64,000 nt of DNA from assembly GCA_018662005.1 (NCBI GenBank), contig JABJHA010000002.1, forward strand, positions 124,001 through 188,000, written 5' to 3'. The stretch's first letter is position 1, and every line of letters starts with the position of its first letter. This document shows positions 641-28,205 of the stretch, one piece after another. The stretch is from Rhodospirillaceae bacterium (GTDB lineage Bacteria; Pseudomonadota; Alphaproteobacteria; Rhodospirillales; JABHCV01). Below the pieces are notes generated by a model. That model searched no databases. It had not been told where the DNA came from and worked only from the letters and a program-made list of their open reading frames with translations. The position numbers were made by a program, and so were the translations under genes.

Positions 641-2701
641 ATGACCGGGGAAAACAACAAAATTCTTATCTGCGACTGTGACGCCAGTATGAGTCTGGAC
701 GCCAAGGCTCTTTCCAAGGCCCTTGATGACGCCCCGGTCTCCTCCCACACCAGTTTATGTCGGGCCCAGATTGAAAACCTGTCCAGGGAACTGGCGGGAG
801 ATACACCCGTTACTGTGGCCTGTACCCAGGAAGTGCCGGTATTCCTTGAAGCCATCGACGAGCAGGAAAAACCCCCGGCGGTGACGTTTGTAAATATCCG
901 CGAGCGCGCCGGCTGGTCCGGTGAAGGCAAGAAAGCAGGCCCAAAAATTGCTGCCCTGATCGCCGAAGCCGCCGTCCCGGTTAAACCGGCAATCAATCTG
1001 ACCCTTGAATCTAATGGATCCGTCTTGATCCTTGGGCGGGACGAAATGGCGCTAGGGGCGGCCATACGTCTGTCACAACGCCTTGATGTCACCCTGGTTT
1101 TTCAAAACACGACCAAGGAATCCGTCATGCCGCCAGCATTGATGGATTTTCCCGTGTTTTCGGGCGCCGTTGAGACCGCGAGCGGGCACCTGGGCAATTT
1201 CGAGATCGCTTTTTCAGCCCTCGCCCCCAGTCTGCCTTCATCAAAGGGCAACTACACATTTGGGCAACCGGGTTCGCCAAACCCGTTGAAGACCGATCTT
1301 ATTCTCGACCTGAGCGGGTCAGACCCCCTGTTCACCGGATCAGAGAAACGCGATGGTTATTTCAATCCGTCGACAAGCGATCCGGTCAGCATCGAACGCG
1401 CCTTGTTCGATCTTGCCGATATGGTCGGAGAATTCGAGAAACCCCGTTATGTGGACTATGACGGCGCCATCTGCGCCCATGGTCGCAATGGTATTCCCGG
1501 CTGCACCCTGTGCGTTGATCTGTGCCCGACCGGCGCCATTACATCAGCCGATGAGCGCGTCGCCATAGACCCCTATATCTGCGCTGGCTGTGGAAGTTGC
1601 GCCGGGTCCTGCCCGACCGGTGCTATCGAGTACGCCATGCCGGGTGGCGTTGATACCCTGGCGCGTCTGCGCACGTTGCTGGCAACGTATCTTAAAGCCG
1701 GAGGCAAGAATCCTGTCCTTATGATTCATGACCGGACATTCGGTGATGAAATGATCGCCACAATAGCCCGTTCCGGCAAAGGACTACCGGCAGGAGTTTT
1801 GCCTTTCCTGCTGAACGAGGTCACCCAGGCCGGAATTGATACCCTGCTTGCCGGCATCGCTTACGGGGCATCTCAAATTCTGGTTATGACGCCACCCCAC
1901 AAGCAGGACGAACAGGATGGCCTGAACCAGCAGCTCGCCACATCCAACGCTATTTTAAAGGGCCTGGGTTACGGGGAGGATCGCCTGTCCCTGATTGATC
2001 AGGCCGATCCCGAAAGTGTCGAAGCCCGCTTATATGCCCTGAGCCCGCCCGCATCCGTTGGCGCTGCAACCTTTATGGCACTGGGTAACAAGCGCCAGCG
2101 CCTGAACCAAATTCTCGAAAGTCTGCACGGCCAAGCGCCCGCCCCCGTTGATGTGATCGAACTGGAACAAGGCGCGCCATTCGGGGCCGTCGTTATTAAC
2201 ACCGAAGGCTGTACCCTTTGCCTGTCATGCGTTAACGCCTGCCCGGCAAAAGCCCTTAGAGACAACCCGGACGCACCGGAGCTGAAGTTCCAGGAAAGCA
2301 ATTGCATTCAGTGCGGATTGTGCAAAACCACCTGCCCTGAAAATGTCATCAGCCTGAACCCGCACATCGACTTCACGACGCTGAACGCCCAGGCGATAAT
2401 CTTAAAGAAGGAAGAGCCCTTTGAGTGTATCCGTTGCAGCAAGCCGTTCGGGGTCAGCTCGACGATTGAGAAGATGATCGAGAAAATGCGTGGCCACAGC
2501 ATGTTCCAGGACCCCAAATCCCTGGACCGGTTACGCATGTGTGACGACTGCCGGGTCATCGATATGGCCGAAGGGGAAGAGCACCCCTGGGCATCAAAAC
2601 AACGTGGCACGAAAACCACGGAGGATTATCTGAAAGAGCGCGAAGACCTGCGCCAGCAAGCCGCCGAAGCGATGGAAAATGACAGCCCTGATGATGATTA
2701 A
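641..2701 (+). CDS. large ferredoxin-like protein with four [4Fe-4S] motifs
   Basis: A 686-residue soluble protein likely moving electrons to or from the formate dehydrogenase system encoded opposite. Two CxxCxxCxxxCP motifs lie near residues 288-325 (GCTLCVDLCPTG and CAGCGSCAGSCPTG) and two more near 523-566 (GCTLCLSCVNACP and CIQCGLCKTTCP). Two extra CxxC pairs follow near residues 598 and 633 (ECIRC, MCDDC) and could bind another metal. No signal peptide or membrane segment is visible. The start at ATG 641 is preferred over the GTG at 629 because AAAAGGTG lies just upstream of 641. Large 4Fe-4S proteins of this kind are known beside respiratory fdh operons in proteobacteria. The gene ends in a 4-base convergent overlap with mobB. 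Confidence 0.8.
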   Translation: MTGENNKILICDCDASMSLDAKALSKALDDAPVSSHTSLCRAQIENLSRELAGDTPVTVACTQEVPVFLEAIDEQEKPPAVTFVNIRERAGWSGEGKKAGPKIAALIAEAAVPVKPAINLTLESNGSVLILGRDEMALGAAIRLSQRLDVTLVFQNTTKESVMPPALMDFPVFSGAVETASGHLGNFEIAFSALAPSLPSSKGNYTFGQPGSPNPLKTDLILDLSGSDPLFTGSEKRDGYFNPSTSDPVSIERALFDLADMVGEFEKPRYVDYDGAICAHGRNGIPGCTLCVDLCPTGAITSADERVAIDPYICAGCGSCAGSCPTGAIEYAMPGGVDTLARLRTLLATYLKAGGKNPVLMIHDRTFGDEMIATIARSGKGLPAGVLPFLLNEVTQAGIDTLLAGIAYGASQILVMTPPHKQDEQDGLNQQLATSNAILKGLGYGEDRLSLIDQADPESVEARLYALSPPASVGAATFMALGNKRQRLNQILESLHGQAPAPVDVIELEQGAPFGAVVINTEGCTLCLSCVNACPAKALRDNPDAPELKFQESNCIQCGLCKTTCPENVISLNPHIDFTTLNAQAIILKKEEPFECIRCSKPFGVSSTIEKMIEKMRGHSMFQDPKSLDRLRMCDDCRVIDMAEGEEHPWASKQRGTKTTEDYLKEREDLRQQAAEAMENDSPDDD

Positions 2702-3201
2702 GCTTTTTCCAGCTTGTTAAATGACAAAATAAAATCGGCGACGGCGCTGACATCATTCAAATCAATCAACGGCACACTTAAGCCCTCAATCGGGCCGTCA
2801 CTGGCAACGGCAATAATTTTATCGTCACCGGGGGCCAGTAATTCCTGTTCGTGATCGTGGCGGAAAACTTCCAGCTTGGCATGACTTTCGCGCTTGAAAC
2901 CTTCGATCAGCAACAAATCGACCGGTTCCAGTTTTTCAATGAGCTCCCCCAGCGTTGGTTCGGGGGCATCGCGCAGTTCACGGATAAGCGACCAGCGCCC
3001 GGCAGAGGCAACCATCACTTGCTTGGCGCCGGACTTGCGATGGCGGTATGAATCCTTGCCCGGTTTATCGACTTCAACATTGTGATGAGTATGTTTGATG
3101 GTCGAAACCCCGACCCCCCGGGCCGTTAATTCGGGGATCAGCTTAACCAGTAATTCTGTCTTGCCGCTGCCGCTCATGCCGACGATGCCAAAAATTTTCA
3201 T
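2698..3201 (-). CDS. mobB: molybdopterin-guanine dinucleotide biosynthesis protein MobB
   Basis: A 167-residue P-loop GTPase of the MobB family that assists MobA in attaching GMP to molybdopterin, giving the bis-MGD cofactor that FdhA needs. The N-terminus carries the Walker A motif GMSGSGKTEL (about residues 8-17), followed by the family segment STIKHTHH and the later LLLIEGFKRE. Length and motif order fit MobB proteins. It is the last gene of the minus-strand fdh run and its start directly abuts the stop of the MurD-like gene, so the two are almost certainly co-translated. No mobA is present in the window. Confidence 0.9.
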   Translation of the reverse strand: MKIFGIVGMSGSGKTELLVKLIPELTARGVGVSTIKHTHHNVEVDKPGKDSYRHRKSGAKQVMVASAGRWSLIRELRDAPEPTLGELIEKLEPVDLLLIEGFKRESHAKLEVFRHDHEQELLAPGDDKIIAVASDGPIEGLSVPLIDLNDVSAVADFILSFNKLEKA

Positions 3202-4530
3202 TTATTCCTCATCGTCTCTTATCCCGGGCAAGGCCTCGACCAATGAACAGAATGCGTCACCATCACCTGAACCGCAACCGGGTGCGAAAATAACCACATC
3301 CCACGCCCCTCCCTGTGCGGCTTGCACGGCTTTCTCTAAATTATCACACGGCCGGGTCCGAATGCTTCCCTCTAGGGCTTCGGCCAGATCCTTACCGGCC
3401 TGACCGAAAAGATAAGCTCCTTTGATGCGATCGGAAACTGCTTTAAGACCATCTATTGACCCGCCAATTTGATCACCACCGCCGATCCAGCAAATATCAT
3501 CATAACCCTGGAAACTGCTGGCCACGCAATCAAGGGATGTTGAGGCGGCATCGTTGATATAAAGAACGCCGTCAATTTTCCCGATCTCCTCGCGATGATC
3601 AACAAGGCCCGGAAAACTCTGAATGGCCGCCATCGCCGCGTGCGGCTCAACACCAAGGGCACGCACGGTGGCAAAGGCCGCGACCACGTTCGCCTGGGCA
3701 TGGGGTCCCGCGAATTGTCGGATCGATGATAAATCCATCACCACCACCGGCTCACCACCATCGAAACTGTCATAGAGCGCTCCATCCTGAACAAAGGCGC
3801 CACCCTTAATCACTTGTTTTGTTGAAATGGGGAACACCCGTTGTTCAGCGGCTTTCGATAATTTCTTAAAAATCGCCTGCGATGCTTTATCGTCAATACT
3901 GATGATGGCGGCCCGCGGTTCGGTCTGGCGATGAAAAATCTGCAAGGCTTCGGCACGCTTCATTGCGCTATCCATGTTCAACAGCACCGCAACATCGAAC
4001 GTGATGGAAACCGTATGGGCGACCCTGAAAGGCGTCATCTCGGCAACATAAACCCCTTCGACCCCAAGCGGATCGGTGTTCAAGGCGGACGTGCCGGACA
4101 ATCCCGCCATTTCCCCTTCACGGCCTGTAACCTGCAACAGGTAGGTGACAATCGCCGCCGTTAAGGATTTGCCGTAAGCACCCGATATTCCAACATAAGC
4201 CGCCTCGCGCTGGGTTCGCGCCAAAAGCTCGACATCGCAAATGACTTCCACATTCTGCTCAAGAGCCCGGGCTGCAAGATCTTTAGCCGCCGGATCGGTT
4301 TCCCATGCATGGGCGGAAACCACCAGCGTCGTGAACTGCCGAAGATCGTCTGCTGTGAAATCTTTAGTCGTGATGCCGCCTCCAGCGGCGTGTGCCCGAT
4401 TATCCGGGTCGCTATCCCACGTCGAAAGTTCGGCCTGTCCCGCGTGCAGGGCGCGGGCAGTATAAAGCCCGGCCTCATCAAGACCGTACAAGGCTACGGG
4501 GTAGCCGGCAAAAGGGAAGACATCTATCAA
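3202..4530 (-). CDS. MurD-like Mur ligase paralogue in the fdh operon
   Basis: A 442-residue protein with the length and domain order of MurD (UDP-MurNAc-L-Ala:D-Glu ligase): an N-terminal Rossmann domain (PVALYGLDEAGLYTARAL), a central ATPase with P-loop GISGAYGKS at residues 114-122, a GPHAQAN segment near 275-281, and a C-terminal domain with FPGLVDHREE and INDAAST near 306-331. It departs from true MurD at key places: the usual GTNGKST is AYGKSL, the usual NDSKATN is NDAASTS so the lysine is lost, and the region after LLN lacks the DHxDR motif. It lies between an HdrD/DsrK-like gene and mobB with no spacing, far from any dcw cell-wall gene. It probably ligates an amino acid or similar group to something other than UDP-muramyl peptide, perhaps a cofactor. 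The fold is secure; the substrate is unknown. Confidence 0.75.
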   Translation of the reverse strand: MIDVFPFAGYPVALYGLDEAGLYTARALHAGQAELSTWDSDPDNRAHAAGGGITTKDFTADDLRQFTTLVVSAHAWETDPAAKDLAARALEQNVEVICDVELLARTQREAAYVGISGAYGKSLTAAIVTYLLQVTGREGEMAGLSGTSALNTDPLGVEGVYVAEMTPFRVAHTVSITFDVAVLLNMDSAMKRAEALQIFHRQTEPRAAIISIDDKASQAIFKKLSKAAEQRVFPISTKQVIKGGAFVQDGALYDSFDGGEPVVVMDLSSIRQFAGPHAQANVVAAFATVRALGVEPHAAMAAIQSFPGLVDHREEIGKIDGVLYINDAASTSLDCVASSFQGYDDICWIGGGDQIGGSIDGLKAVSDRIKGAYLFGQAGKDLAEALEGSIRTRPCDNLEKAVQAAQGGAWDVVIFAPGCGSGDGDAFCSLVEALPGIRDDEE

Positions 4531-4533
4531 GAG

Positions 4534-5790
4534 TTAGTCATCGAGGTATTCGGCCACCAGTTCAGTGAGTCCCAGAACGGGAAGGTCCATCCCGAATTCG
4601 TCGATGGCCTCTTCCAGAACATTTCGGCAATTACCACAGGCCGTAACCAGCGCTTCGGGGCCCACCGCATCAAGTTGCTTCTTCTTGGCCCCAAATGATT
4701 TAATCCGCAATTCTTCGGCTCTTGAATTGGAACTGACGCCACCACCGCCGCCGCAACAAATATTGGCGACGCCATAATTTTCCATCTCGATGAAATTGTC
4801 ACTTACCATATGCAGAAGGTTTCTCGGTTCATCAACGATACCGCCCCGGCGGACGATTTGGCATGGATCATGGAAAGTGACCCGGCGTTGATCAAGCTCG
4901 CTTTTGGTTTTGATCCGGCCTTCACGGACAAGTTGGTCGAGCAACTCGAGAATATGAATAACTTCAAAATCATAATTCTTGCCGACAAGATTAGGGCCTT
5001 CCCAATTCAGCGCCGAATAGGCATGGCCACATTCCGGACTGACAACGTATTTGACCTGCAGTTTTTCAGCCGCATCAACGATACGCTGGACCAATGTTCT
5101 GGCGATTTCCTTGTCGCCCATCTGGATACCGACATTTGTTGCCTCATAAGCTTCCGTCGATATGGTCCAGGTCACACCGGCCTGTTTGAAAATGCGCGCC
5201 AGTGCACCGATCACTTCATAGAAGTTCAGAACTTCCATCGCTGACAGGATAATCATGTAGTCAACGCCGACCTTATTAAGTTCGATAGGGATGCCAACTT
5301 CTTCGGCTTGTTCGCCGACAATCTTGGCCATGATTTCAGGTTTAATACCAAGTGGGCGGCCAATTTCCAGCACCCGCTTGGCGGCTGCGTTCAGGCCTTC
5401 AGGCACCAGCCCTGCGGCGACCATCGCTTCACGGGATTTGCGCACAAGACCCGCAATGTCGATGCCCATAGGACAAACAATGGTGCAACGCCCACACAAG
5501 GTGCATGAATCATAAATCAGCTCTTCCCACTCTTTAAGCATATCTTCGTCGACTTCATCAGGAACCAGGCCAAACATCTTCTTGATGCCTGAAAGCGGAG
5601 CTTTATGGCGTTTGTAAACACGCCGCATGGGTTCCAGCTTCCATACCGGTGTGTAGCGCACATCGCCGGTCGTCTCATAAAAATGACAAGCCTGGGCACA
5701 CTGGCCACAATGAACACAAGAATCCAGATAGGCCGCGGCAGAGGCATCAATATTATTGACGAAAGTTTCGATAGCGGCTGAAACACTCAT
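4534..5790 (-). CDS. HdrD/DsrK-like Fe-S protein with CCG domain
   Basis: A 418-residue soluble iron-sulfur protein. Two classical [4Fe-4S] motifs lie at the N-terminus (CVHCGQCAQACHF near residues 26-38, CTLCGRCTIVCP near 96-107). The C-terminal half holds a CCG domain like that of heterodisulfide reductase HdrB/HdrD: DPC, then CC after 34 residues, then CGNC after 38 more. An upstream SPECGHAY segment looks like a degenerate first CCG repeat. Such modules bind a noncubane cluster that handles disulfide or thiol chemistry or passes electrons. The start codon overlaps the stop of the NarI/DsrM-like gene (ATGA), so the two probably form a membrane complex resembling DsrMK. Linkage to fdh suggests electron exchange with formate oxidation, which is inference. 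Confidence 0.85.
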   Translation of the reverse strand: MSVSAAIETFVNNIDASAAAYLDSCVHCGQCAQACHFYETTGDVRYTPVWKLEPMRRVYKRHKAPLSGIKKMFGLVPDEVDEDMLKEWEELIYDSCTLCGRCTIVCPMGIDIAGLVRKSREAMVAAGLVPEGLNAAAKRVLEIGRPLGIKPEIMAKIVGEQAEEVGIPIELNKVGVDYMIILSAMEVLNFYEVIGALARIFKQAGVTWTISTEAYEATNVGIQMGDKEIARTLVQRIVDAAEKLQVKYVVSPECGHAYSALNWEGPNLVGKNYDFEVIHILELLDQLVREGRIKTKSELDQRRVTFHDPCQIVRRGGIVDEPRNLLHMVSDNFIEMENYGVANICCGGGGGVSSNSRAEELRIKSFGAKKKQLDAVGPEALVTACGNCRNVLEEAIDEFGMDLPVLGLTELVAEYLDD

Positions 5791-6431
5791 GGCACGACTC
5801 CCCGGCGACCAAAGAAGGCGCCTGTATAGCCACGACTGAAGACAAAGGTAACCGCGTGCATCAGGCGGCTAAACGGGAAGTATATAAGCCAGATTTCGAC
5901 GCTCAGCATGTGAAGGGCGCGCAAACTGTCGTGACTTTCATCCAATGCAAGGCAGCCGGTCAACATGGCAAGGAACGTCAACCATGATGCAATATGATCA
6001 TCGGCATCGGAAATTTGAATCATCACCGGATCCGAGATGCGCCTGATCCACAGCAGGATCAAACCGGCAAAAGCAATTTCGGCGCTCAGGATAAAGCCCC
6101 AGCGCGGCATCGTCACCCAATCGAAGCCAACGACATTTTCTTTCAGGAACAACACATGTGGGGCCGCATAAATCAACAAGGCGAAAAGTCCCAGATGGAA
6201 CATATAGCCCGCGACCAGGTGATAGCGGGTACGGAAAGAAAAACCACCGTGGGGGACAAAGTGGAGGAATTGCCCCTTGATCGCACCCATCAGGGCCGAC
6301 GCACGAGGAATTGAAATATCCGGTTTACGGCCAAACCGGATGATACCGATAATCCGCCACAGGGCACCGAGGACAAAAACGCTTGATGCCAACACCCACA
6401 GCGGACCTTCTGTAATTTCAAGAAATGTCAT
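5787..6431 (-). CDS. NarI/DsrM-like cytochrome b membrane protein
   Basis: A 214-residue integral membrane protein with about five hydrophobic segments. Histidines suited to bind heme b stand in or near the membrane parts (FLHFVPHGGF, YHLVAGYMFHLGLF, RALHMLSVEIW, RLMHAV). This pattern is that of the NarI/DsrM family, which exchanges electrons with the quinone pool. It overlaps the following HdrD/DsrK-like gene by four bases and follows the formate dehydrogenase cytochrome subunit by 41 bases. Together with its neighbour it would be a second membrane module beside FdhABC. A Shine-Dalgarno-like AAGGACGAGG lies upstream of the ATG. Confidence 0.8.
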   Translation of the reverse strand: MTFLEITEGPLWVLASSVFVLGALWRIIGIIRFGRKPDISIPRASALMGAIKGQFLHFVPHGGFSFRTRYHLVAGYMFHLGLFALLIYAAPHVLFLKENVVGFDWVTMPRWGFILSAEIAFAGLILLWIRRISDPVMIQISDADDHIASWLTFLAMLTGCLALDESHDSLRALHMLSVEIWLIYFPFSRLMHAVTFVFSRGYTGAFFGRRGVVP

Positions 6432-6472: not shown

Positions 6473-7546
6473 TCATTCCGCTGGCATGTTGTCTGGTTGA
6501 CCAGCCTGCACGGCGCCTTCTACAACGTCCTCGCCTTCAGCCATCGCCTCTTCGGCCCACCAGCCGTGATGTTCCTGGGCCCACTTTTCATCGACATAAC
6601 CTTGTGTCATGCCTTCAAGCGCCCCTTCAACACCGATGGTGCCCAGATAGATATGAACAAGCGAGACGGCGATTAGAATAACCGCAGACCCGCCATGTAT
6701 CAGGTGCGCCAGTTGCAACTGCTGGACGCGCTCCGCCAGCCACGGGAAATCGAGCAATAAGCCTGAACCCGAAACCGCCAGCCCGGCAAAGAACAGCAAC
6801 CAGTACCAGAATTTTTCGCCCAGATTGTATTTCCAGCTTGGCGGATGCCCCTTGGAGAAGAAGCCGCCCTGCATCACCCAGGTCAAATCACCCTTCTGCC
6901 AGATATTATCCTTCAAATAGACGCCAAGCATGATGACCAGGGCGACAATAAAAAGTGGGCCCAGCAGGTTATGGGCTTGCATCGAGGCGCTGGCGACGGC
7001 TGACCAGGCGTCTTTGCCGATGATCGGCGAAATCACATAACGCCCGAACATCACAAACAGGCCACTGAAACCAAGCAGAATAAACAGGCTGGCAATAAAC
7101 CAGTGTATCCATCGTTCCGGTTGCGAGAACCGGGGAACCGCCCTGCCCGTTCGCCCACCCGTCATCTTGATGCGGCCATGAACAAGGAAGAACACGATAA
7201 CAAAAACCAGGGACACAAGGATTAATAGACCGCCCCAGTAGGAAAGTGGGCCATTTCTTAATGACCGCCACTCTTCCCCCGGCGTCTGAATAAGAACCTG
7301 CATCCCGCCCGGGGTGCCCGAAAGGTCAAAAGGCTGGCCACGACGCAGCTGGCGCCAGAAATCAGAATCGCTCTGATTGCCCAGGGTTTTTCCCGGAACA
7401 TTGCCACTCGTTTGCGCATAAGCCTGGGACTTAAGATCAAAAGACCCGGTCATTCCAGCGGCAAACACCCAGACAAACAACATCATGAAACACGCCATCA
7501 CGGTCAGGCGTTTGAAGGGCAGTCTTTTTTTCATCGACTTATTCAT
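6473..7546 (-). CDS. fdhC: formate dehydrogenase cytochrome b subunit (gamma)
   Basis: A 357-residue membrane subunit that anchors FdhAB on the periplasmic face and passes electrons to quinone. The first 40 residues look like a cleaved signal ending near SQAYAQ, followed by a periplasmic stretch and then a four-helix cytochrome b561-type core. Candidate heme ligands lie in RWIHWFIASL, QAHNLLGPLF and AHLIHGGSAV...SLVHIYLG. The C-terminal tail is acidic and soluble. It starts two bases after the stop of the small lipoprotein gene, within the fdh operon. Symbols for this subunit differ between species (fdhC, fdoI, fdnI). Confidence 0.9.
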   Translation of the reverse strand: MNKSMKKRLPFKRLTVMACFMMLFVWVFAAGMTGSFDLKSQAYAQTSGNVPGKTLGNQSDSDFWRQLRRGQPFDLSGTPGGMQVLIQTPGEEWRSLRNGPLSYWGGLLILVSLVFVIVFFLVHGRIKMTGGRTGRAVPRFSQPERWIHWFIASLFILLGFSGLFVMFGRYVISPIIGKDAWSAVASASMQAHNLLGPLFIVALVIMLGVYLKDNIWQKGDLTWVMQGGFFSKGHPPSWKYNLGEKFWYWLLFFAGLAVSGSGLLLDFPWLAERVQQLQLAHLIHGGSAVILIAVSLVHIYLGTIGVEGALEGMTQGYVDEKWAQEHHGWWAEEAMAEGEDVVEGAVQAGQPDNMPAE

Positions 7547-7548
7547 GG

Positions 7549-7854
7549 CTATTGTCTTCCCGACTGAGACCAGGCCCTGATACGCATGGATTGCAATTTC
7601 GCCCTGTTGATAGAAGCAGAGCCGGATATTTTCGCCCCACCAACCGGTCTGGAAGAGCCGGACTGATGAACCATACGGTTACGTAAACTGGCCAACTGAT
7701 TTCGGCTTAAGGTTTTGTCCGGATTTGATCCAAGAAATTTACCCGCTTGTAGGCTTAGCAAGCGTCCTTGTTCCTCATCGCGGCAAGCGCCAAGGGATAC
7801 GGCGATCAATGTCACCATTCCCAAGAACAGCACACGCTTATGCAAATCGGCCAT
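7549..7854 (-). CDS. small lipoprotein of the fdh operon, unknown function
   Basis: A 101-residue protein starting MADLHKRVLFLGMVTLIAVSLGAC. The hydrophobic stretch followed by LGAC is a type II signal peptide with lipobox, so the mature protein (about 79 residues, starting at Cys23) should be lipid-anchored in the periplasm. The open frame extends further upstream, but AAAGGAGCG lies just before the ATG at 7854 and the lipobox makes sense only from there. The mature part is basic, rich in Ser, Arg and Gln, and shows no known domain. It sits between fdhB and fdhC, so it may assist assembly or stability of the periplasmic enzyme. Confidence 0.7.
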   Translation of the reverse strand: MADLHKRVLFLGMVTLIAVSLGACRDEEQGRLLSLQAGKFLGSNPDKTLSRNQLASLRNRMVHQSGSSRPVGGAKISGSASINRAKLQSMRIRAWSQSGRQ

Positions 7855-7913
7855 ACTACAGTCGCTCCTTTGAGAAGGTGTCTGCCCCGTTCGTGCGAGG
7901 CAGACTTGCCTGC

Positions 7914-8510
7914 TCAACCTCCGCCTTTTTTCTCGTAGGCCGTTCCCCAACCCCAGGCACCCGAGCCGAAGCCGCGGGACACAACACGCTCCCGGTAAAT
8001 GTTGGAGACTTCATTGCCATCACCACCGAGCAAGGCCTTGGTCGCGCACATTTCTGCGCACAACGGAAGCTTTCCTGCGGCCAGGCGATTGGCGCCGTAT
8101 TTGGTTTTTTCGGCCAACGAGAAATCTTCTTCAGGGCCACCGTTGCAGAAGGTGCATTTGTCCATCTTGCCGCGCGAGCCGTAGCTGCCGGCTTGCGGGT
8201 ATTGCGGCGCGCCAAACGGGCAAGCGTAGAAGCAATAACCACAACCGATGCATAAATCCTTGGAATGCAAAACGACGCCCTGTTCGGTGTCGTAGATGCA
8301 ATCAACCGGACAGACCGCTATACACGGTGCATCCGAGCAATGCATACAAGCCACCGAAATGGATCGCTCGCCCGCCCTGCCGTCGTTAATGGTGACGACC
8401 CTGCGGCGGTTGATGCCCCAAGGAACTTCGTTAGCGTTTTTACAAGCCGTAACACAGCCATTACATTCGATGCAGCGTTCGGCGTCACAGAGAAATTTCA
8501 TACGTGCCAT
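7914..8510 (-). CDS. fdhB: formate dehydrogenase iron-sulfur subunit (beta)
   Basis: A 198-residue ferredoxin-type subunit that carries electrons from FdhA to the membrane cytochrome. It holds four cysteine groups for [4Fe-4S] clusters: CIECNGCVTAC near residues 13-23, CMHCSDAPCIAVCP, CIGCGYCFYACP, and the split set CTFC with a late CAEMC. This is the usual arrangement of FdhB/FdnH-type subunits without the C-terminal transmembrane helix, so attachment must be through FdhC. It starts 13 bases after the stop of fdhA with a strong GGGGAGCAAG ribosome site. No own Tat signal is present; export would be in complex with FdhA. Confidence 0.93.
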   Translation of the reverse strand: MARMKFLCDAERCIECNGCVTACKNANEVPWGINRRRVVTINDGRAGERSISVACMHCSDAPCIAVCPVDCIYDTEQGVVLHSKDLCIGCGYCFYACPFGAPQYPQAGSYGSRGKMDKCTFCNGGPEEDFSLAEKTKYGANRLAAGKLPLCAEMCATKALLGGDGNEVSNIYRERVVSRGFGSGAWGWGTAYEKKGGG

Positions 8511-8523
8511 TTTCTTGCTCCCC

Positions 8524-11391
8524 TTATGCTGCTTCGATGCGACAAAGTGTCACTTTGGATTCTTGCATTTGCGTCACCGAATCATAACCGTAGGTGCCGC
8601 ACATATTGGCCGCTTCACCAAGAACGTATGGATCCGTGCCTTCGGGATATTTATCCCTTAGATCTTTGCCCTGCCAATGGCCACCAAAGTGGAACGGCAT
8701 AAAGCAAACACCGGCGGCAACCCGATCGGTAATCATCGCCTTGATCAGAACCTTGCCGCCTTCAGGGCTATAAAGCCACATATCCTGACCGTCCCTGATA
8801 CCGGCGTTATTGGCATCGACCGCATTAACCTCACAGAACATTTCCTGCTGCAATTCGGCCAGCCACTTGTTGGAACGGCTTTCATCGCCGCCACCTTCGT
8901 ATTCAACAAGTCTGCCTGTGGTCAGGATGGTCGGGAACTTTTTCGAGAAATCCTGCTTTTGGATCGACTCGTAAAGGGTCGGCAGACGGTAGTTCCTGGT
9001 ATCCTTGTAAGTCGGATAATCAGGGACCAGATCACGCCTTGGTGTGTACAGGGGCTCCCTGTGGATGGGCACCGGGTCGGGGAATGTCCAGACCACGGTA
9101 CGGGCCTTGGCATTTCCAAACGGTGCGCAACCATGCTTGATAGCGACGCGCTGGATACCACCTGAAAGGTCGGTTTTCCAGTTGCTCTTGTCACCGACAC
9201 CCTTGGCCATGATAGCCTTTTCAGCCGCCGTCAGGTCCTTGTCCCAGCCCAGTTTCTTGAGCATCGCCATGGAGAATTCAGGATAACCATCCTTGATTTC
9301 CGAACCGACTGAATAAGATCCTTCGGCGAGAAGATTTTGACCGTCTTTTTCGACGCCAAAGCGGGCCCGGAAAGTCAGGCCACCTTCGGCCACCGGTTTT
9401 GACGGATCATAAAGAACAGGTGTTCCCGGATGACCCATTTCCGCCGTTCCCCAGCAAGGCCAGGGCAGACCATAATACTCACCATCGCAGGGGCCACCTC
9501 TGGCTTGCAAGGTGGTCCGGTCAAAGGTGACTTTGTTGGCCATTTGTTTTTTCATCCGTTCCGGCGACTGGCCGGTATAACCGATGGTCCACATTCCCCT
9601 GTTAAATTCGCGGGTAATGTCTTCGACAAAAGGTTCGTTACCGTTGACCTTGATGTTCTTGAACATCTCTTTGTCCATGCCCAGCTTCTTGGCAAACATG
9701 TACATGATTTCATGGTCGGGCTTGGATTCGAAAACCGGTTCAACGACTTTGTCACGCCATTGCAGGGAACGGTTTGACGCTGTCACCGAACCATAGGTTT
9801 CGAACTGTGTACAGGCCGGTAGGACGTAGACCCCGTCCTTGCGATCAGGAATGACCGCAGCAAAAGTTGGTACAGGATCAATGACCACCATCAGGTCGAG
9901 TTTTTCCATCGCCGTTTTCATTTCCGGCAGACGGGTCTGCGAGTTGACCGCGTGGCCCCAAAGCACCATCGCCCGAACGTTATCGGGTTGGTCGATGTTG
10001 TCCTTTTTCTCGAGCACGCCATCAATCCAGCGTGATACCGGGATGCCTTTTGATTCCATCAGTTTCTGGGTCGCAAAACGGCCCTTCAACCAGTTGTAAT
10101 CAGTCTCCCAGACACGCGCCCAGTGCTTCCATGAACCGGTTTTAAGGCCGTAATAACCGGGCAATGAATGGGACAGGATGCAGAAGTCGGTCGCCCCCTG
10201 AACATTGTCGTGGCCACGGAAAATATTGGCACCACCGCCCTGCTTGCCCATGTTGCCGAGGGCCAGTTGCATGATGCAGTAAGCGCGGGTGTTGTTGTTA
10301 CCATTGGTGTGCTGGGTGCCGCCCATGCACCAGATGAACGTGCCGGGACGGTTATTGGCCATGATCCGGGCGACGCGCTTCAACTGCGAACCCGGAACGC
10401 CCGTAACCCTTTCGGTTTCTTCAGGTGTCCATTTGTTGATCTCTTTGCGAACCTGGTCCAGGCCCCAAACGCGCTGGCGGATAAACTCTTTATCTTCCCA
10501 GCTGTTCTCGAACACATGCCACAGAATACCCCAGATCAAAGCAACATCCGTACCGGGGCGGAAGCGGACGTATTCATCAGCATGGGCCGCGGTGCGGGTG
10601 AAGCGCGGATCACAGACAATCAGCGCCGCATTGTTCTGTTCCTTGGCTTTAAGAAGATGCTGCAAGGCAACCGGATGGGCTTCGGCCGGGTTGGAGCCAA
10701 TCAGGAACATCGCCTTGGAATTATGGATGTCGTTGTACGAGTTGGTCATCGCCCCGTAGCCCCAAGTATTAGCAACACCGGCGACGGTCGTTGAGTGGCA
10801 AATACGCGCCTGGTGATCACCGTTGTTGGAACCCCAGTAGGCGTAGAACTTGCGGAACAGGTAAGACTGTTCGTTACTGAATTTGGCCGATCCCAGCCAA
10901 TAAACCGAATCAGGACCAGAGGTCTTGCGGATATCGAGCATCTTGTCGCCGATTTCGCCGATTGCCTCGTCCCAGGAAACCCGCTTCCATTTGCCGCCTT
11001 CCAATTTCATCGGGTATTTCAGGCGGCGCTCGTTATGGGCATGTTCGCGGACACTGGCACCCTTGGCGCAGTGGCTGCCAAGATTGATCGGGCTGTCGAA
11101 GTCCGGCTCCTGACCGGTCCAGACACCGTCTTCAACTTCGGCAATAACGCCGCAGCCGACAGAACAGTGGGTGCAAACCGAAGCAATGCGCTTGGCTTTG
11201 CTTGCCGTGGCCTGGGCAGCAGCCGGTTGAACGTGACCCAGTGTCGCCGCAGAGGCCAGCGCCACACCACCAGCCGTCAGGCCGGAGTTGCGCAGGAACG
11301 TGCGTCGATCAATTGCCCCGCCGATTGATCCGGCAAGGGCCTGACTGAGCCGTGAATTCTTTGATGTTCCGTTTGATTTTTTAATTAACAT
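8524..11391 (-). CDS. fdhA: respiratory formate dehydrogenase catalytic subunit, Cys type, Tat-exported
   Basis: A 955-residue molybdenum or tungsten bis-MGD enzyme that oxidises formate to CO2. A Tat signal is plain (DRRTFLR at residues 28-34, then a hydrophobic run to AQA), so it acts in the periplasm. The N-terminal [4Fe-4S] site uses C73, C76, C80 and C108. The metal ligand is Cys198 in ARICHS, followed by His199; this is the cysteine form of the selenocysteine motif, and no in-frame TGA is needed. The remaining sequence has the usual molybdopterin oxidoreductase domains, including the C-terminal dinucleotide-binding domain. Length fits FdhA of FdhABC enzymes. The small Tat protein gene lies 15 bases upstream and fdhB 13 bases downstream. 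Confidence 0.96.
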   Translation of the reverse strand: MLIKKSNGTSKNSRLSQALAGSIGGAIDRRTFLRNSGLTAGGVALASAATLGHVQPAAAQATASKAKRIASVCTHCSVGCGVIAEVEDGVWTGQEPDFDSPINLGSHCAKGASVREHAHNERRLKYPMKLEGGKWKRVSWDEAIGEIGDKMLDIRKTSGPDSVYWLGSAKFSNEQSYLFRKFYAYWGSNNGDHQARICHSTTVAGVANTWGYGAMTNSYNDIHNSKAMFLIGSNPAEAHPVALQHLLKAKEQNNAALIVCDPRFTRTAAHADEYVRFRPGTDVALIWGILWHVFENSWEDKEFIRQRVWGLDQVRKEINKWTPEETERVTGVPGSQLKRVARIMANNRPGTFIWCMGGTQHTNGNNNTRAYCIMQLALGNMGKQGGGANIFRGHDNVQGATDFCILSHSLPGYYGLKTGSWKHWARVWETDYNWLKGRFATQKLMESKGIPVSRWIDGVLEKKDNIDQPDNVRAMVLWGHAVNSQTRLPEMKTAMEKLDLMVVIDPVPTFAAVIPDRKDGVYVLPACTQFETYGSVTASNRSLQWRDKVVEPVFESKPDHEIMYMFAKKLGMDKEMFKNIKVNGNEPFVEDITREFNRGMWTIGYTGQSPERMKKQMANKVTFDRTTLQARGGPCDGEYYGLPWPCWGTAEMGHPGTPVLYDPSKPVAEGGLTFRARFGVEKDGQNLLAEGSYSVGSEIKDGYPEFSMAMLKKLGWDKDLTAAEKAIMAKGVGDKSNWKTDLSGGIQRVAIKHGCAPFGNAKARTVVWTFPDPVPIHREPLYTPRRDLVPDYPTYKDTRNYRLPTLYESIQKQDFSKKFPTILTTGRLVEYEGGGDESRSNKWLAELQQEMFCEVNAVDANNAGIRDGQDMWLYSPEGGKVLIKAMITDRVAAGVCFMPFHFGGHWQGKDLRDKYPEGTDPYVLGEAANMCGTYGYDSVTQMQESKVTLCRIEAA

Positions 11392-11682: not shown

Positions 11683-12297
11683 TCAGGCCGCCATGTCAAA
11701 TGCCTGTTCTTCAATTTCCATCAACAACGTGCCAATCGTTCCAACCGGCACGTACAGTGATGCGTTTTCCGCCTCTTCAAGATCAGTGAAAAACATTGGT
11801 GCCCACGACAAAAGATGGGCTCTGAAAAATGATTGCTGACAGCCGTCGCCTTCCGGGCCGCGATGGCCCAGGATAAGCGTGTGCATGACTTCCAGCACGG
11901 TTGCGATGTGGTCTTCGGGTTCCGTTGCTTTCGGGTCACCCTGCAGCCCCAGGCGCGACATCTCGCCACGCAAGACGGCCAGCGGCTTGTCATAAAGCAG
12001 CCCGGTCAGGTAATGGGATGCATAAGGCAGCAGCTCGCCACCGGCGCCAACCCCGTAAAACAGCTTGGTGAATTCTTCTTCGATATCCTCAGGTGTCGCC
12101 TTCCTGGCAGCGGCAGATAAAGCGCCAAGAGCTTTTCCCATGGGGCTATCGTCGCCTTCAATGGAACGCAACATTTCGATGGTTTCAGGGGTCGGAGGTT
12201 TCGTGAGGAGGTTCGATAAAAGGGCATAGAAACGGGCGCGCAGAAGCTCGTCATCACCCTCAGCTTGTGAAATCTGGCCTCCCCGACCTTCATTCAT
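11683..12297 (-). CDS. TorD-family molybdoenzyme chaperone for FdhA
   Basis: A 204-residue, mostly helical cytosolic protein of the TorD/DmsD/NarJ family that binds the Tat signal of a molybdoenzyme and checks cofactor insertion before export. Recognisable parts are the N-terminal RARFYALLSNLL, the EEFTKLFYGVGAGGELLPYASHYLTG segment in the middle and the EPEDHIATVLEVMHTLI segment (the E-P-x-D-H motif of the family). The open frame runs further upstream to 12384, but GGAGGGG lies just before the ATG at 12297 and family members begin near there. Its position before fdhX and fdhA points to FdhA as client. Confidence 0.88.
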   Translation of the reverse strand: MNEGRGGQISQAEGDDELLRARFYALLSNLLTKPPTPETIEMLRSIEGDDSPMGKALGALSAAARKATPEDIEEEFTKLFYGVGAGGELLPYASHYLTGLLYDKPLAVLRGEMSRLGLQGDPKATEPEDHIATVLEVMHTLILGHRGPEGDGCQQSFFRAHLLSWAPMFFTDLEEAENASLYVPVGTIGTLLMEIEEQAFDMAA

Positions 12298-12501
12298 AAC
12301 AGCCCCTCCGAGGCTTTTCGTTATGGCTCGTTGTTCTTTTTTATTAAGACTAAAGTTATAGCAGAAAAACCGCCATTTATCCATGCATTTGGGAGGACTC
12401 TCGGCATCGAGTCAATTTTAATTATTGTAATGAACAGGAGGGGAGCAAGCTTAAAGTGCCATAAGCCCTTATAAAGACTATTACCTTAATTTTCTCTAAT
12501 A

Positions 12502-23880: not shown

Positions 23881-25467
23881 CTATGCGTTACCCCAACCAG
23901 GTTTACCACCCGCCCCGCCGCCGCCGGCACCTCGTTCGGGCGTGTGATTAATGGCGTAGCCCTGATTATAGGATGCTTTTGTCACCAACATATATTTCAT
24001 CCACCAACCGGCGACCAACGCACAAATTCCGGCCAGCACACCGACAACAGGTGCGGCCCCGACAAAAATGTAACCACTGGCAATCAGGATGATCGGCAAC
24101 AAATGACCAAGCAAGCTTATGGGTGTGCTCATTCTTTTAATGACCTGCAACGCTTCATCGGGTGCGGAGGTATTCAGGACTTTCCGGTAGGTGCGCCAAC
24201 TGCGCAACCTGAGAACCAGAAGCACCGCCAATACCGTGGTCAATCCGGCGTAGACGGGCGGCGGCAGGAAACCGACGGCGACCAGTAACCCCGTACCTTC
24301 ACACAAGCCACTGGTCATGATCAGCCTGACGATGGCGGGGGTGCGCCAGACAGGGATCCCCTTGCTTGCTTTAAGAAGGCGGGCCTGACAATACAGGAAG
24401 CCCATTGCGACCACGGCGGCGACGCCCAAAAGTATTTCTGTACCAAACCATCCGGCGACAAGCGCCAGCGGGAACAACAACCCAGCAACCATGGATTCAC
24501 GGCTCATCCATGATGTTTGCGGATTGAAAAAGACATTCAGAGGGGCCCGCCATGGCCTGCCCGTTTCAAGCCAGACCAGGAACAATCCCGCGCCGACAAA
24601 GGCCAGGGCCAGCAGCACATACGAAAACGATAGAGGCGCATAAAACGACACAAACGCAATCGCCGCCAGCAAGCCGCTACCGGTACCGCCGCCGATAAAG
24701 TTTCCAGCCGCCCGCCAGTCCCAATGTTGCTGCAACCACGGTGCGGCCCCGCCGACGTTTCCGATACCGGTGGAAAACAACGACGGTGCTTCCGCCTCAT
24801 CATCGGTCTCGTCATTATTCTTTCGTTTCCAGATATAATGAAAGCCGGGATTTGTCCCAAGCTCCTCGTGCATACGAAACGTTCTATGGGTATCCAGTAA
24901 TTTCGAGACGTTACTGTCCGGATCTTTCAGGTCGCCGAAATGCAAAGCTCCGGCGATGCAGGAATTAACACAGGCCGGGCTGGCTTCATGATCGATGCCG
25001 GGTGTCAGGCCCTTTGCAAGTCCATCGTCAACCCGGTCCGAACAGAAGGTGCATTTCTGGGCCACCCCCAGACGCGCCGGATCTTCACGGCGGGCTTCGT
25101 TTTTCATTTGCCCGCCGCCGCCATAGGCGAAGGTTGGTCCGTTGACCTTGTAGCGGGCCTGATAGGGACAGGCGACGGCGCAATAGGCGCAGCCGATACA
25201 GAGATCGTAATCAATGGTGACGATGCCGTCGGCGCGCTGGCCCGTCGCCGTTGACGGGCAGACATGCATACACGGCGGGTCTTCACAGTGCATGCAGCCG
25301 ACCGGAACAAAAACCCGCTTCACATCGGGATAGGCACCAACTTCAAGATCAAGAACCTTGCGCCACTGAACGGAAGGCGGTGTGGCGTTGGTATGTTTGC
25401 ACGAAGCCGTGCATGTCTGGCAACCGACACAGCGCTCAAGATCGGCGACCATTCCCCAACGGGTCAT
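23881..25467 (-). CDS. fused Fe-S and membrane-anchor subunit of molybdoenzyme (PadC-PadD-like fusion)
   Basis: A 528-residue fusion. Residues 1 to about 200 form a DmsB-type ferredoxin with four cysteine groups (CVGCQTCTASC, CMHCEDPPCMHVCP, CIGCAYCAVACP, CTFC plus CVNSC). From about residue 255 on there are eight or so hydrophobic helices of DmsC type. The pair with the molybdopterin subunit at 25464 matches the three-part phenylacetyl-CoA:acceptor oxidoreductase (reported sizes about 93, 27 and 26 kDa), with the two small subunits joined here. No Tat signal is seen, so the Fe-S part would face the cytoplasm. It overlaps the next gene by four bases and ends in a Gly-rich tail. Confidence 0.82.
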   Translation of the reverse strand: MTRWGMVADLERCVGCQTCTASCKHTNATPPSVQWRKVLDLEVGAYPDVKRVFVPVGCMHCEDPPCMHVCPSTATGQRADGIVTIDYDLCIGCAYCAVACPYQARYKVNGPTFAYGGGGQMKNEARREDPARLGVAQKCTFCSDRVDDGLAKGLTPGIDHEASPACVNSCIAGALHFGDLKDPDSNVSKLLDTHRTFRMHEELGTNPGFHYIWKRKNNDETDDEAEAPSLFSTGIGNVGGAAPWLQQHWDWRAAGNFIGGGTGSGLLAAIAFVSFYAPLSFSYVLLALAFVGAGLFLVWLETGRPWRAPLNVFFNPQTSWMSRESMVAGLLFPLALVAGWFGTEILLGVAAVVAMGFLYCQARLLKASKGIPVWRTPAIVRLIMTSGLCEGTGLLVAVGFLPPPVYAGLTTVLAVLLVLRLRSWRTYRKVLNTSAPDEALQVIKRMSTPISLLGHLLPIILIASGYIFVGAAPVVGVLAGICALVAGWWMKYMLVTKASYNQGYAINHTPERGAGGGGAGGKPGWGNA

Positions 25468-28205
25468 GAGGCTTTCTCCACCACGCTGATGGAAGCGCGC
25501 ACCAGATCAGCGCCCGAGCCTGTGGAATCGGTTAAATCCAGCAGCATCGGCGTCAGCTTGTTCATGCTCGGCACATCGAAGGTTTTGGCAAGCGGTGTCG
25601 CCCAGTGATCAAACTGTCCGATCATGACCAGGGTATCGGGGCGTACGCCCTGCCTAAGAATGGCCCGACCCCGTGTCGTGTTCAGGGGCGAGGCAATCTC
25701 GACAAGATCACCCTGAGCGATACCCAGTTCAGCGGCCCGACCGGTGTTCATGATGACCCCGCCATGACCGGCGATGTTGGAGGCGACTTCGCGGATCATC
25801 TGAATATCGGCATTGCCGCCCCAGGCGTATTGCATGGAGCGCGAGGTCACCAGCCAGAAGGGGAAATCGTTAATGTCGATATCAAAATTTTCTTCAAGAA
25901 CCCGCTCCCAAAGGGCGGCGAGGTCCTGCCAGACAGGCAGGGGTTCGTACTCATCAAGCTGGGCGTCCCACCAACTGATGCCACTTTCATGAAGCCGGTT
26001 GGCCAGCTGCTTGCCGATCCTGTAGAGGCCTTCCTGGTAGGGCATTTCAAAGCGCAAGCCCTGATCTTCCAGTTCCGGGTACAGGTACCAGTTCAAACGC
26101 TCGTAAGGGATCGTCTTCAGTCCGTGTTCAAGATAATAGTCCAGACCGTCCTGATTTTCCCCGTCAGACATTTCAATACTGGCCGCCCGGCAGACCGCGT
26201 CCCAGATTTCCTCGACCGAGTGTTCCTGCCCCTCATCCAGCGAACAGTCGACCACATCGCTGATCAGCCGCACACCGGCAGCGCCGCGGTTGATAGCATT
26301 GTTATAGGCTTCCAGAAGCCCTGTGCGTTTGGCAAGTTCCGTGGCGATCCAAGTGAAATCCTTGGCCTCGCCTTGCGTCTCGACGACGGGTTGGCGCAAG
26401 GCGAAACCCTGATGATCCCAGTATTGTTCAAAGTACTTGGTGCCGCCGATTCGGATCAGCTGAAGGCTTTCAAGGTCGGTGCATTCAGGCAACAGGATGT
26501 CGGCCATGTGGTTTGTTTCATCCGGTGTGTAGGCAAAACACACCGTAAAAGGGAACCGGGATACCGTGTCGGCAATGGAGTCCGTATCCCAGAACGAGAT
26601 CACCGGATTGGTCCGGTAAACAAACCAGACATCAGGCAACGTCGGTTCAGGCCAATTTTCCGGTGTTTGGTTTTGCAACATCCAGGCGATATGGGTTGGC
26701 CCCAGCGCCTGGCTCCACGGCGAGTTGGCGACCAGCGGAATAAGGGTCCGGTTGGCATTGCGCACATCGGGTCTTGATGTCCAGTTTTCCTTGTCCGTCG
26801 GGTTCATGGGGTATTCCATAAACCCGTCGCGGGATGGTTTGACACTGGCCTGGCGCGAAGTGGCAGGTCGGTTCAGGCGCACCGTTGTGCCCAGCGTTCC
26901 CCCGGGAACTTCAAGAGCGCCGACCAGACAGGCCAATAAGGTGCGGGCCCAGCAACAGTCAAACCCGCCCCAGCCGTTGTTGACGGTTTTGCCGAGCGTA
27001 ATGGCGACTGGCCTGAACGGCAGTGTGCGTCCTTCAATTTCTATGGTCTCGCCGATGTGGGCGTGTTCAAGATATTCCAGGGCAATACGGCGGATGGTTT
27101 TAACCGGCACGTCACAAATGTGAGAAGCCCATAACGGACTGTAGGGTTCGGTATGCTCAACCAGTTTTTCCCAAGCCGTCTGACAGCGTTCGTTTTCGTG
27201 GACCCATTCCTTGCCATCAGCACCTTCTTCAACGCCGTGTTCAACCAGAAACGCTGCCTCCAGCACCGGGTCCGCACCCGGCGTATCAAAGGGCACCGGC
27301 TTGTTTGTATTGGCGTCCCAGATTAACGGTTTGCGGGTTTCGGGATCGCGCATGTAATAGCCAAACTTGCCAAGCAGATAGGGCGAGGAGGTTCGGTGCT
27401 TGATGAAATCAAGATCAAGCTCTTCCCATTTACGCTCATGAAGAAGGACATGGATCATGGCCATCAGGAATGCCGGATCGCTTTTCGGGCGGATCGGCAC
27501 CCATTCGGCTGAACAGGCCCCAGTGATCGAAAGGTGTGGTTCCAGTTGTACCCGCTTCATGCCCCGGGCACGCCCATCGGCATGACGTTTGACCCCGCAG
27601 ACGCCGCCAGATGCTTCAACGTTGCTGCCAAAGGAAAGCAGGTATTCGCAAAGCGGTGTATCAGGGGCAACCGTGAAGGCGCGATGCCAGAATTCGCCGT
27701 ACAGATGTTCGGAATGGTAACACTTTACCCCTTGTCCACTGCCGAAGCCTGCATCAATGGGCCCCCAGGCGCCAAGAAAAGCCGGGAAGGTTCCCATGTA
27801 GGATGTCGGTGTACCGCCACCGCCGAAACTGGCGGCAACACGGGGGTATCCGGATTCATCTTTTAGTCCCTTAGCCCGACATTCGTTCAGATTTTCAGCG
27901 ACAAGATCAAGCGCCTCGTTCCATGAAACCGGGACAAACCCCGGATCTTCATCCGGACCTTTTTTCGGGTTTGTCCGCTTCATCGGGGTTTTGATGCGAT
28001 GAGGGTTATAGGTTTTTTGTATAAGCCCGTATGCCTTAACGCAGACTTTACCGGCAGCCGGATGCACGGTGGCTGAGTCAAAGTTTGGTTGAACCTCAGT
28101 CGCCACTCCGTCTTCAACCCCGACGCTCAGCAGGTCGGGGCCGGAAACGCACTGGTAACAGTAGGTCGGAACGTCGCGACGCGTCTGCGGATCTTTCTTG
28201 CTCAT
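25464..28205 (-). CDS. padB: molybdopterin oxidoreductase, PadB-like phenylacetyl-CoA:acceptor oxidoreductase large subunit
   Basis: A 913-residue DMSO-reductase-family enzyme without Tat signal, hence cytoplasmic, as expected for a CoA-ester substrate. The N-terminal cluster site reads CYQCVSGPD: C16, C19 and C55 are present but the usual third cysteine is missing, with Asp24 nearby. Cys162 in GVKCYHSEH stands where the metal-binding Cys or Ser usually lies. Middle segments (ITLGKTVNNGWGGFDCCWARTLLA, WFVYRTNPVISFWDTDSIAD) and the C-terminal LVTSRSMQYAWGGNADIQM follow the family order. Expected reaction: phenylacetyl-CoA oxidised by four electrons to phenylglyoxylate with release of CoA, electrons going to quinone through the fused subunit. 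The PadB identity rests on family resemblance plus the ior, kor and paaK neighbours. Confidence 0.72.
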   Translation of the reverse strand: MSKKDPQTRRDVPTYCYQCVSGPDLLSVGVEDGVATEVQPNFDSATVHPAAGKVCVKAYGLIQKTYNPHRIKTPMKRTNPKKGPDEDPGFVPVSWNEALDLVAENLNECRAKGLKDESGYPRVAASFGGGGTPTSYMGTFPAFLGAWGPIDAGFGSGQGVKCYHSEHLYGEFWHRAFTVAPDTPLCEYLLSFGSNVEASGGVCGVKRHADGRARGMKRVQLEPHLSITGACSAEWVPIRPKSDPAFLMAMIHVLLHERKWEELDLDFIKHRTSSPYLLGKFGYYMRDPETRKPLIWDANTNKPVPFDTPGADPVLEAAFLVEHGVEEGADGKEWVHENERCQTAWEKLVEHTEPYSPLWASHICDVPVKTIRRIALEYLEHAHIGETIEIEGRTLPFRPVAITLGKTVNNGWGGFDCCWARTLLACLVGALEVPGGTLGTTVRLNRPATSRQASVKPSRDGFMEYPMNPTDKENWTSRPDVRNANRTLIPLVANSPWSQALGPTHIAWMLQNQTPENWPEPTLPDVWFVYRTNPVISFWDTDSIADTVSRFPFTVCFAYTPDETNHMADILLPECTDLESLQLIRIGGTKYFEQYWDHQGFALRQPVVETQGEAKDFTWIATELAKRTGLLEAYNNAINRGAAGVRLISDVVDCSLDEGQEHSVEEIWDAVCRAASIEMSDGENQDGLDYYLEHGLKTIPYERLNWYLYPELEDQGLRFEMPYQEGLYRIGKQLANRLHESGISWWDAQLDEYEPLPVWQDLAALWERVLEENFDIDINDFPFWLVTSRSMQYAWGGNADIQMIREVASNIAGHGGVIMNTGRAAELGIAQGDLVEIASPLNTTRGRAILRQGVRPDTLVMIGQFDHWATPLAKTFDVPSMNKLTPMLLDLTDSTGSGADLVRASISVVEKAS

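Follow-up and report, generated by a model that had tools for sequence, protein, structure and literature searches.

A window of 64,000 nucleotides from a Rhodospirillaceae genome (the whole stretch of DNA analysed) carries the operon of a formate dehydrogenase, FDH3. Its genes follow in the order TorD-like chaperone, fdhA, fdhB, fdhC, TmcC-like, DsrK-like, a MurD-like gene that we refer to as MurDL, and mobB (Table 1). MurDL starts 3 nt past the stop codon of the DsrK-like gene, and its own stop codon abuts the ATG of mobB. The N-terminus of FdhA contains the sequence RRTFLR, by eye the twin-arginine motif of a Tat signal. Relatives of the convergently transcribed multi-4Fe-4S protein adjoin many other FDH3 loci. 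Between fdhC and fdhB lies a small open reading frame (7549-7950), the inner part of which, judged by eye, resembles a short lipoprotein; a comparable reading comes after fdhB in locus L189. The window contains a further gene pair of molybdoenzyme type (23881-28205), encoding proteins of 528 and 913 residues with partial matches of 33% and 27% to FdhB and FdhA.

Table 1. Genes of the FDH3 operon and features of MurDL, in window coordinates.
Feature	Position	Strand	Basis
Convergent multi-4Fe-4S protein, 690 aa	629..2701	+	Pfam
mobB, abuts MurDL	2698..3201	-	MobB profile 160.7 bits (cut-off 76.2)
MurDL, 442 aa from a TTG, probably a MurD paralogue without ligase activity	3202..4530	-	ORF, TIGR01087 profile, active-site alignment
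MurDL third (C-terminal) domain, residues 309-442, relaxed in the window copy	3202..3606	-	Alignment, dN/dS, domain profile
MurDL residues 185-199, site of the deleted DHxDRHG...K stretch (His183 and carbamylated Lys198 of E. coli MurD)	3934..3978	-	Alignment
MurDL P-loop GISGAYGKS, residues 114-122, retained in the window copy	4165..4191	-	Sequence, alignment
DsrK/TmcB-like iron-sulphur protein, CCG domain	4534..5790	-	DsrK 251 bits, below cut-off of 400
TmcC-like membrane anchor	5787..6431	-	Profile match below family cut-off
fdhC, formate dehydrogenase gamma subunit (cytochrome b)	6473..7546	-	TIGR01583 above cut-off
fdhB, FDH3 beta subunit	7914..8510	-	NF038355 331.5 bits, above cut-off of 240
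fdhA, molybdenum catalytic subunit	8524..11391	-	Profile matches
TorD-like chaperone	11683..12384	-	Pfam and NCBIfam matches

The initial annotation had described a full-length Mur ligase fold with a P-loop, packed between the DsrK-like gene and mobB. This is confirmed by the NCBIfam profile search, in which TIGR01087 (murD) aligned to residues 12-421 of MurDL with an E-value of 2.7e-49. The score of 168.5 bits is below the curated cut-off (211.95), whereas the MurD encoded in the dcw cluster of the same genome reaches 362.2 bits. The Pfam model Mur_ligase_M also stays below its cut-off (17.6 versus 24 bits), and the solved structures nearest to MurDL by sequence are MurDs (3lk7, E 4.8e-21). 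An AlphaFold model of MurDL (two sequences) had a pLDDT of 37 and was not used. The host genome has a complete dcw cluster, and the place beside mraY and ftsW is occupied by its own murD, not by MurDL. The two proteins are 35% identical. As a diverged paralogue, MurDL is separate from the MurD that its host encodes in dcw.

The TTG start codon assigned to MurDL is backed by conserved N-termini among relatives. It is shared by all three MurDL-bearing genomes of the genus (window position 4530; L036, 15365; L037, 9407) and may keep the amount of MurDL low.

Distribution of MurDL and its linkage to FDH3

Alphaproteobacterial samples comprising 60 relatives, 303 genomes of the order and 386 genomes of the class were searched, and genomes with double matches as well as short frames were then inspected. 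This gave 12 MurDL genes: G000 (the window), G001, G003, G030, G183, G081, G078, G079, G640, G484, G572 and G649. The counts are lower bounds, as the class search gives at least those among the best matches listed and the order search used a threshold of E ≤ 1e-30. A canonical TIGR01087 match above cut-off is present in all 12 hosts, and MurDL is therefore not a true MurD in a genome lacking its dcw copy. The canonical match of G649 is a fragment lying at the end of a contig, and that of G183 was seen with no further dcw genes nearby. Several further double MurD matches were rejected as MurDL: G060, G242 and G681 have two dcw clusters each, the dcw copies of G080 and G490 are split over contigs, and the matches in G306, G579 and G676 are, judged by their ranges only, complementary pieces of a single gene.

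In 11 of the 12 loci MurDL lies inside an FDH3 operon, so that the tie between a diverged MurD paralogue and formate dehydrogenase genes, claimed from the window, holds among the relatives. Two operon layouts occur. The first, TorD-FdhA-FdhB-FdhC-TmcC-DsrK-MurDL-MobB, is that of G000, G001, G003 and G183. In the second, TorD-FdhA-FdhB-FdhC is followed further on by MurDL (G030, G078, G079, G081, G640, G484 and G572; the contig of G079 begins inside fdhA). DUF6352 precedes MurDL in five loci of the second layout (G030, G078, G079, G081 and G640) and was not found at those of G484 and G572. In G649, MurDL and FDH3 are on separate contigs and MurDL has other neighbours, which makes this genome a natural test of whether its role needs operon linkage. 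The truncated MurDL of G649 (L146, 10599-11561) is located beside a gene resembling, by eye, exonuclease III.

The FDH3 beta subunit (NF038355 above cut-off) was found in 58 of the 386 class genomes and in 85 of the 303 order genomes. MurDL is present in five of the 58 FDH3-containing genomes of the class but in none of the 328 others (Fisher p 6.6e-5), and in seven of the 85 but none of the 218 others in the order (p 1.1e-4); both tests ignore shared ancestry, which overstates their significance. All 12 MurDL genomes have FDH3: the beta subunit is above cut-off in the five class and the seven order members, and fdhB was detected by tblastn in G003, which belongs to neither sample. G002, from the same genus as the window's genome, has neither MurDL nor FDH3.

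The reverse does not hold. A MurDL profile detected no further member in 56 class loci around FDH3 (one being the FDH3 contig of G649, with that of G305 left out and some loci truncated where their contig stops). The order has 78 FDH3 genomes without MurDL, and 20 loci taken from these gave no further member either. Since most FDH3 operons seen have no MurDL, FDH3 in general does without it.

The initial annotation had proposed counting linkage with mobB and the HdrD-like gene as well as with fdhA, and among the MurDL loci only the fdh link proved general. mobB occurs in four of the 12 MurDL loci, and also in six of the 56 class loci, where no MurDL is linked. TmcC and DsrK likewise occur in four MurDL loci and were not found in the other eight; the pair is absent from all 56 class FDH3 loci, while G005, a member of the family to which the window's genome belongs, combines FDH3 with TmcC-DsrK in the absence of MurDL. 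Linkage of MurDL with mobB and the DsrK-like gene is thus confined to a single operon type, and a role of MurDL in serving the DsrK-like protein was rejected on the distribution of TmcC-DsrK. The FDH3 operons with this pair (window 4534-6431; L235, 766-2666), seen in the four MurDL loci and G005, represent an unusual wiring of formate dehydrogenase. TmcC and DsrK are electron modules, the family models of which derive from sulphate reducers.

Other small families accompany FDH3 in the class. A biotin/lipoate-ligase-like protein (PF16917) was found at 21 of the 56 loci, DUF6352 at 22 and DUF6505 at 16 (example: L038, 10008-13547), and several genomes combine a high-scoring PF16917 copy with a second, lower-scoring copy elsewhere. 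PF16917 matches of at least 118 bits, a line set after the scores were known, occur in 18 of 24 MurDL-free genomes, which were hand-picked, versus one of the 12 MurDL genomes. The idea that MurDL replaces the FDH3-linked PF16917 protein was dropped because, within the same order, FDH3 genomes without MurDL mostly have no PF16917 protein either (present in one of 26 chosen).

Active-site residues, third domain and selection

The 12 MurDL sequences were aligned with 59 canonical MurDs and MurD of E. coli. Among the canonical genes, 56 have mraY or ftsW adjoining, and neither was seen beside the other three. We take His183, Lys115, Asn138, Gly73, Thr321, Ser415 and Phe422 to be functional-site residues of MurD. 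Carbamoylation of Lys198 is described as stabilising Mg and called essential for MurD activation in one source (PMC4816537), and Asp182, Lys348, Ala414 and Leu416 are placed near D-Glu, and Lys319 near ADP, in another (PMC8788868).

His183 and Lys198 are retained in none of the 12 MurDL proteins versus all 59 canonical MurDs. The same contrast is seen for Asn138 (0/12 versus 59/59) and nearly so for Gly73 of the UDP loop (1/12 versus 59/59). Lys115 of the P-loop remains in four members (G000, G001, G003 and G030) and is lost in eight. The loss of hallmark residues reported for the window copy was confirmed by the alignment: DHxDR is deleted, NDSKATN has become NDAASTS, and GTNGKST has become GAYGKSL. 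Two of the five D-Glu site positions are kept in this copy (Thr321 and Ser415), with Lys319 replaced by Ala, Lys348 by Ile, and a gap at Phe422. From 87 columns that are near-invariant in canonical MurDs, 33 are retained by at most two of the 12 MurDL proteins. On the other side, 33 columns in common with canonical MurD are retained in at least 11 of the 12, and domain 1 keeps Gly12, Leu13 and Gly17 of the GLxxxG loop as well as Asp35.

Eight of the 12 proteins end after domain 2 and have no C-terminal domain. Their longest frames correspond to 304-340 residues, or 304-320 when counted from the conserved start, and a profile of the C-terminal domain detected no separate piece anywhere in these eight loci. 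All 12 frames are open, and the eight shortened ones stop at about one position. With the Mg-binding residues and the carbamylated lysine lost throughout, and the ATP site and third domain lost in most members, Mur-type ligation is not credible. MurDL is most likely a ligase-dead MurD pseudoenzyme, to judge from these residues.

The gene is nevertheless kept by purifying selection, which is strongest in the middle domain. Using the Nei-Gojobori method (own script), we obtained dN/dS values for MurDL of 0.166 (G000/G001), 0.088 (G000/G003) and 0.090 (G001/G003), compared with 0.111, 0.153 and 0.190 for dcw murD of the same pairs; dS is near saturation in the pairs with G003. The truncated pair G484/G572 gave 0.105, while two more truncated pairs were saturated and yielded no ratio. 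Other operon genes mostly have lower values than MurDL (0.022-0.110 for G000/G001). Domain by domain, G000/G001 gave 0.158 for the first, 0.075 for the middle and 0.229 for the third, with overall ranges of 0.068-0.075 for the middle and 0.22-0.23 for the C-terminal domain. The most relaxed domain is the third, the one that relatives have lost.

Origin of MurDL

For the first MurD tree, 98 rows were reduced to 78 (12 MurDL, E. coli and 65 others picked for diversity); six of these with wrong N-terminal extensions were dropped afterwards, and 16 more before the all-column tree. When all columns were used, the 12 MurDL proteins formed one clade (bootstrap 100, not settled; SH-aLRT 98), which branches within the alphaproteobacterial MurDs and stands clear of the host's dcw copy. 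On columns filled in 93% of the rows, mostly from domains 1 and 2, support was 96. After masking of the active-site columns MurDL split in two, although a single clade was not rejected (p-AU 0.349). The Mur ligase tree proposed in the initial annotation sets MurDL apart from the host's dcw MurD. In the all-column version the short G183 protein is sister to the full-length group of the window, which implies at least two losses of the third domain.

The FdhA tree was sensitive to sampling. As long as all MurDL-free loci came from the class, the MurDL-linked FdhAs formed one clade, suggesting a clean single gain of MurDL with this clade. Addition of 20 order loci undid this picture: the MurDL-linked FdhAs then need two changes, with G030 standing apart (25 far loci and one fragment were left out of this wider tree). 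Across 11 loci, distances between MurDL proteins follow those between FdhAs (Mantel r 0.815, reached in 0 of 5000 permutations). One origin followed by losses would be the simplest reading of these trees. The split under masking and the two changes in the FdhA tree indicate that FDH3 operons may also have captured MurDL more than once.

Possible roles of MurDL

We favour, with a probability of about 0.6, the view that MurDL is a domesticated, ligase-dead MurD paralogue that acts as an accessory protein of FDH3, most likely in its assembly or maturation, and joins no amino acid. Co-occurrence with FDH3 together with purifying selection points to such an accessory role. Because FdhA carries the twin-arginine motif, its cofactor is presumably loaded before export, the stage where accessory proteins act. 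MurDL would then work in the cytoplasm during loading and folding of FdhA, beside the TorD-like chaperone. Domain 1, in which GLxxxG and Asp35 survive from the former nucleotide pocket, could bind a ligand or a partner, and the middle domain, being the most constrained, may act as a scaffold for binding and not as an ATPase. Like the TorD/NarJ-type maturation proteins, MurDL is encoded by a dedicated gene in a molybdoenzyme operon and might share their role, but it is of a different family and has no Pfam match to theirs. Descriptions of TorD-fdh operons exist (PMC4464133).

Co-occurrence and operon position would also suit a structural part of the mature FDH3 complex, either a subunit or an adaptor for the electron module. 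We regard this as unlikely, as the catalytic complex is presumably exported, judged from the Tat motif of FdhA, while no signal is seen by eye at the N-terminus of MurDL, and as the electron modules that accompany MurDL vary (TmcC-DsrK in four of the 12 loci, not found in the others).

A more specific and distinctly doubtful version of an assembly role is that the MurDL scaffold, captured perhaps repeatedly, is a cofactor-handover protein, with its old UDP-binding domain holding the guanine-dinucleotide end of bis-MGD, or a region of FdhA, while FdhA is loaded. If true, this would explain the mobB neighbour in one lineage and why the ATP site and the third domain are dispensable.

Lost catalytic residues, a lost or relaxed C-terminal domain and a patchy distribution are also what one would see in a decaying duplicate that has no function and is carried along by the operon. 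This is improbable in view of dN/dS values of 0.09-0.17 for the whole gene, 0.105 for the truncated pair and about 0.07 for the middle domain. Twelve open frames, the eight short ones with about the same end, and 33 canonical columns retained in at least 11 members speak against it as well.

We give very little credence to the proposal of the initial annotation that MurDL is an active ligase adding an amino acid to a different molecule, for instance molybdopterin or a cofactor that serves the HdrD-like protein. The window copy does have the full Mur ligase architecture, a P-loop, two D-Glu site residues by alignment (Thr321 and Ser415), and mobB and the DsrK-like gene as neighbours in its operon type. 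However, His183 and the carbamylated lysine are gone from all 12 proteins, the P-loop lysine and the C-terminal domain from eight, and the linkage to mobB and DsrK extends to just four of the 12 loci. We know of no amino-acid-bearing bis-MGD. A regulator or sensor tying the supply of cell-wall precursors (UDP-MurNAc-peptides) to formate oxidation, as descent from MurD and the conserved GLxxxG and Asp35 of domain 1 might suggest, is just as improbable, with the UDP loop (Gly73 kept in one member) and Asn138 lost and no DNA-binding domain detected by Pfam in the window copy.

With canonical MurD, for example that of E. coli, the favoured accessory protein shares homology over its whole length, three domains in the window copy, and GLxxxG and Asp35. 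It differs in scoring below the family cut-off, in lacking His183, the carbamylated lysine, the UDP loop and most of the D-Glu site, in having no C-terminal domain in eight of 12 cases, and in its location in FDH3 operons instead of dcw. Coenzyme F430 synthase (CfbE) is a Mur ligase reused for a cofactor; its model, with a cut-off of 250 bits, scored just 18.3 bits on a 58-residue stretch of MurDL. MurD2, like MurDL, is a form of MurD that departs from the classical reaction, but it is described as an active ligase with a few differences in Glu-site residues (PMC8788868), whereas MurDL has lost its catalytic residues and lies among FDH3 genes. A description of MurDL was not found in the open-access library searched, which covers few subscription papers. 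Annotation pipelines should avoid the name MurD for such proteins.

Mur ligases are textbook essential enzymes. MurDL has shed the active site and then a domain, and yet is under selection beside a respiratory molybdoenzyme, which suggests a route from a cell-wall enzyme to a metabolic accessory protein. The intermediates, full-length proteins with a P-loop and truncated ones without its lysine, allow this loss of function to be traced. MurDL would be an unstudied factor of FDH3, a class of enzyme relevant to the chemistry of formate and CO2.
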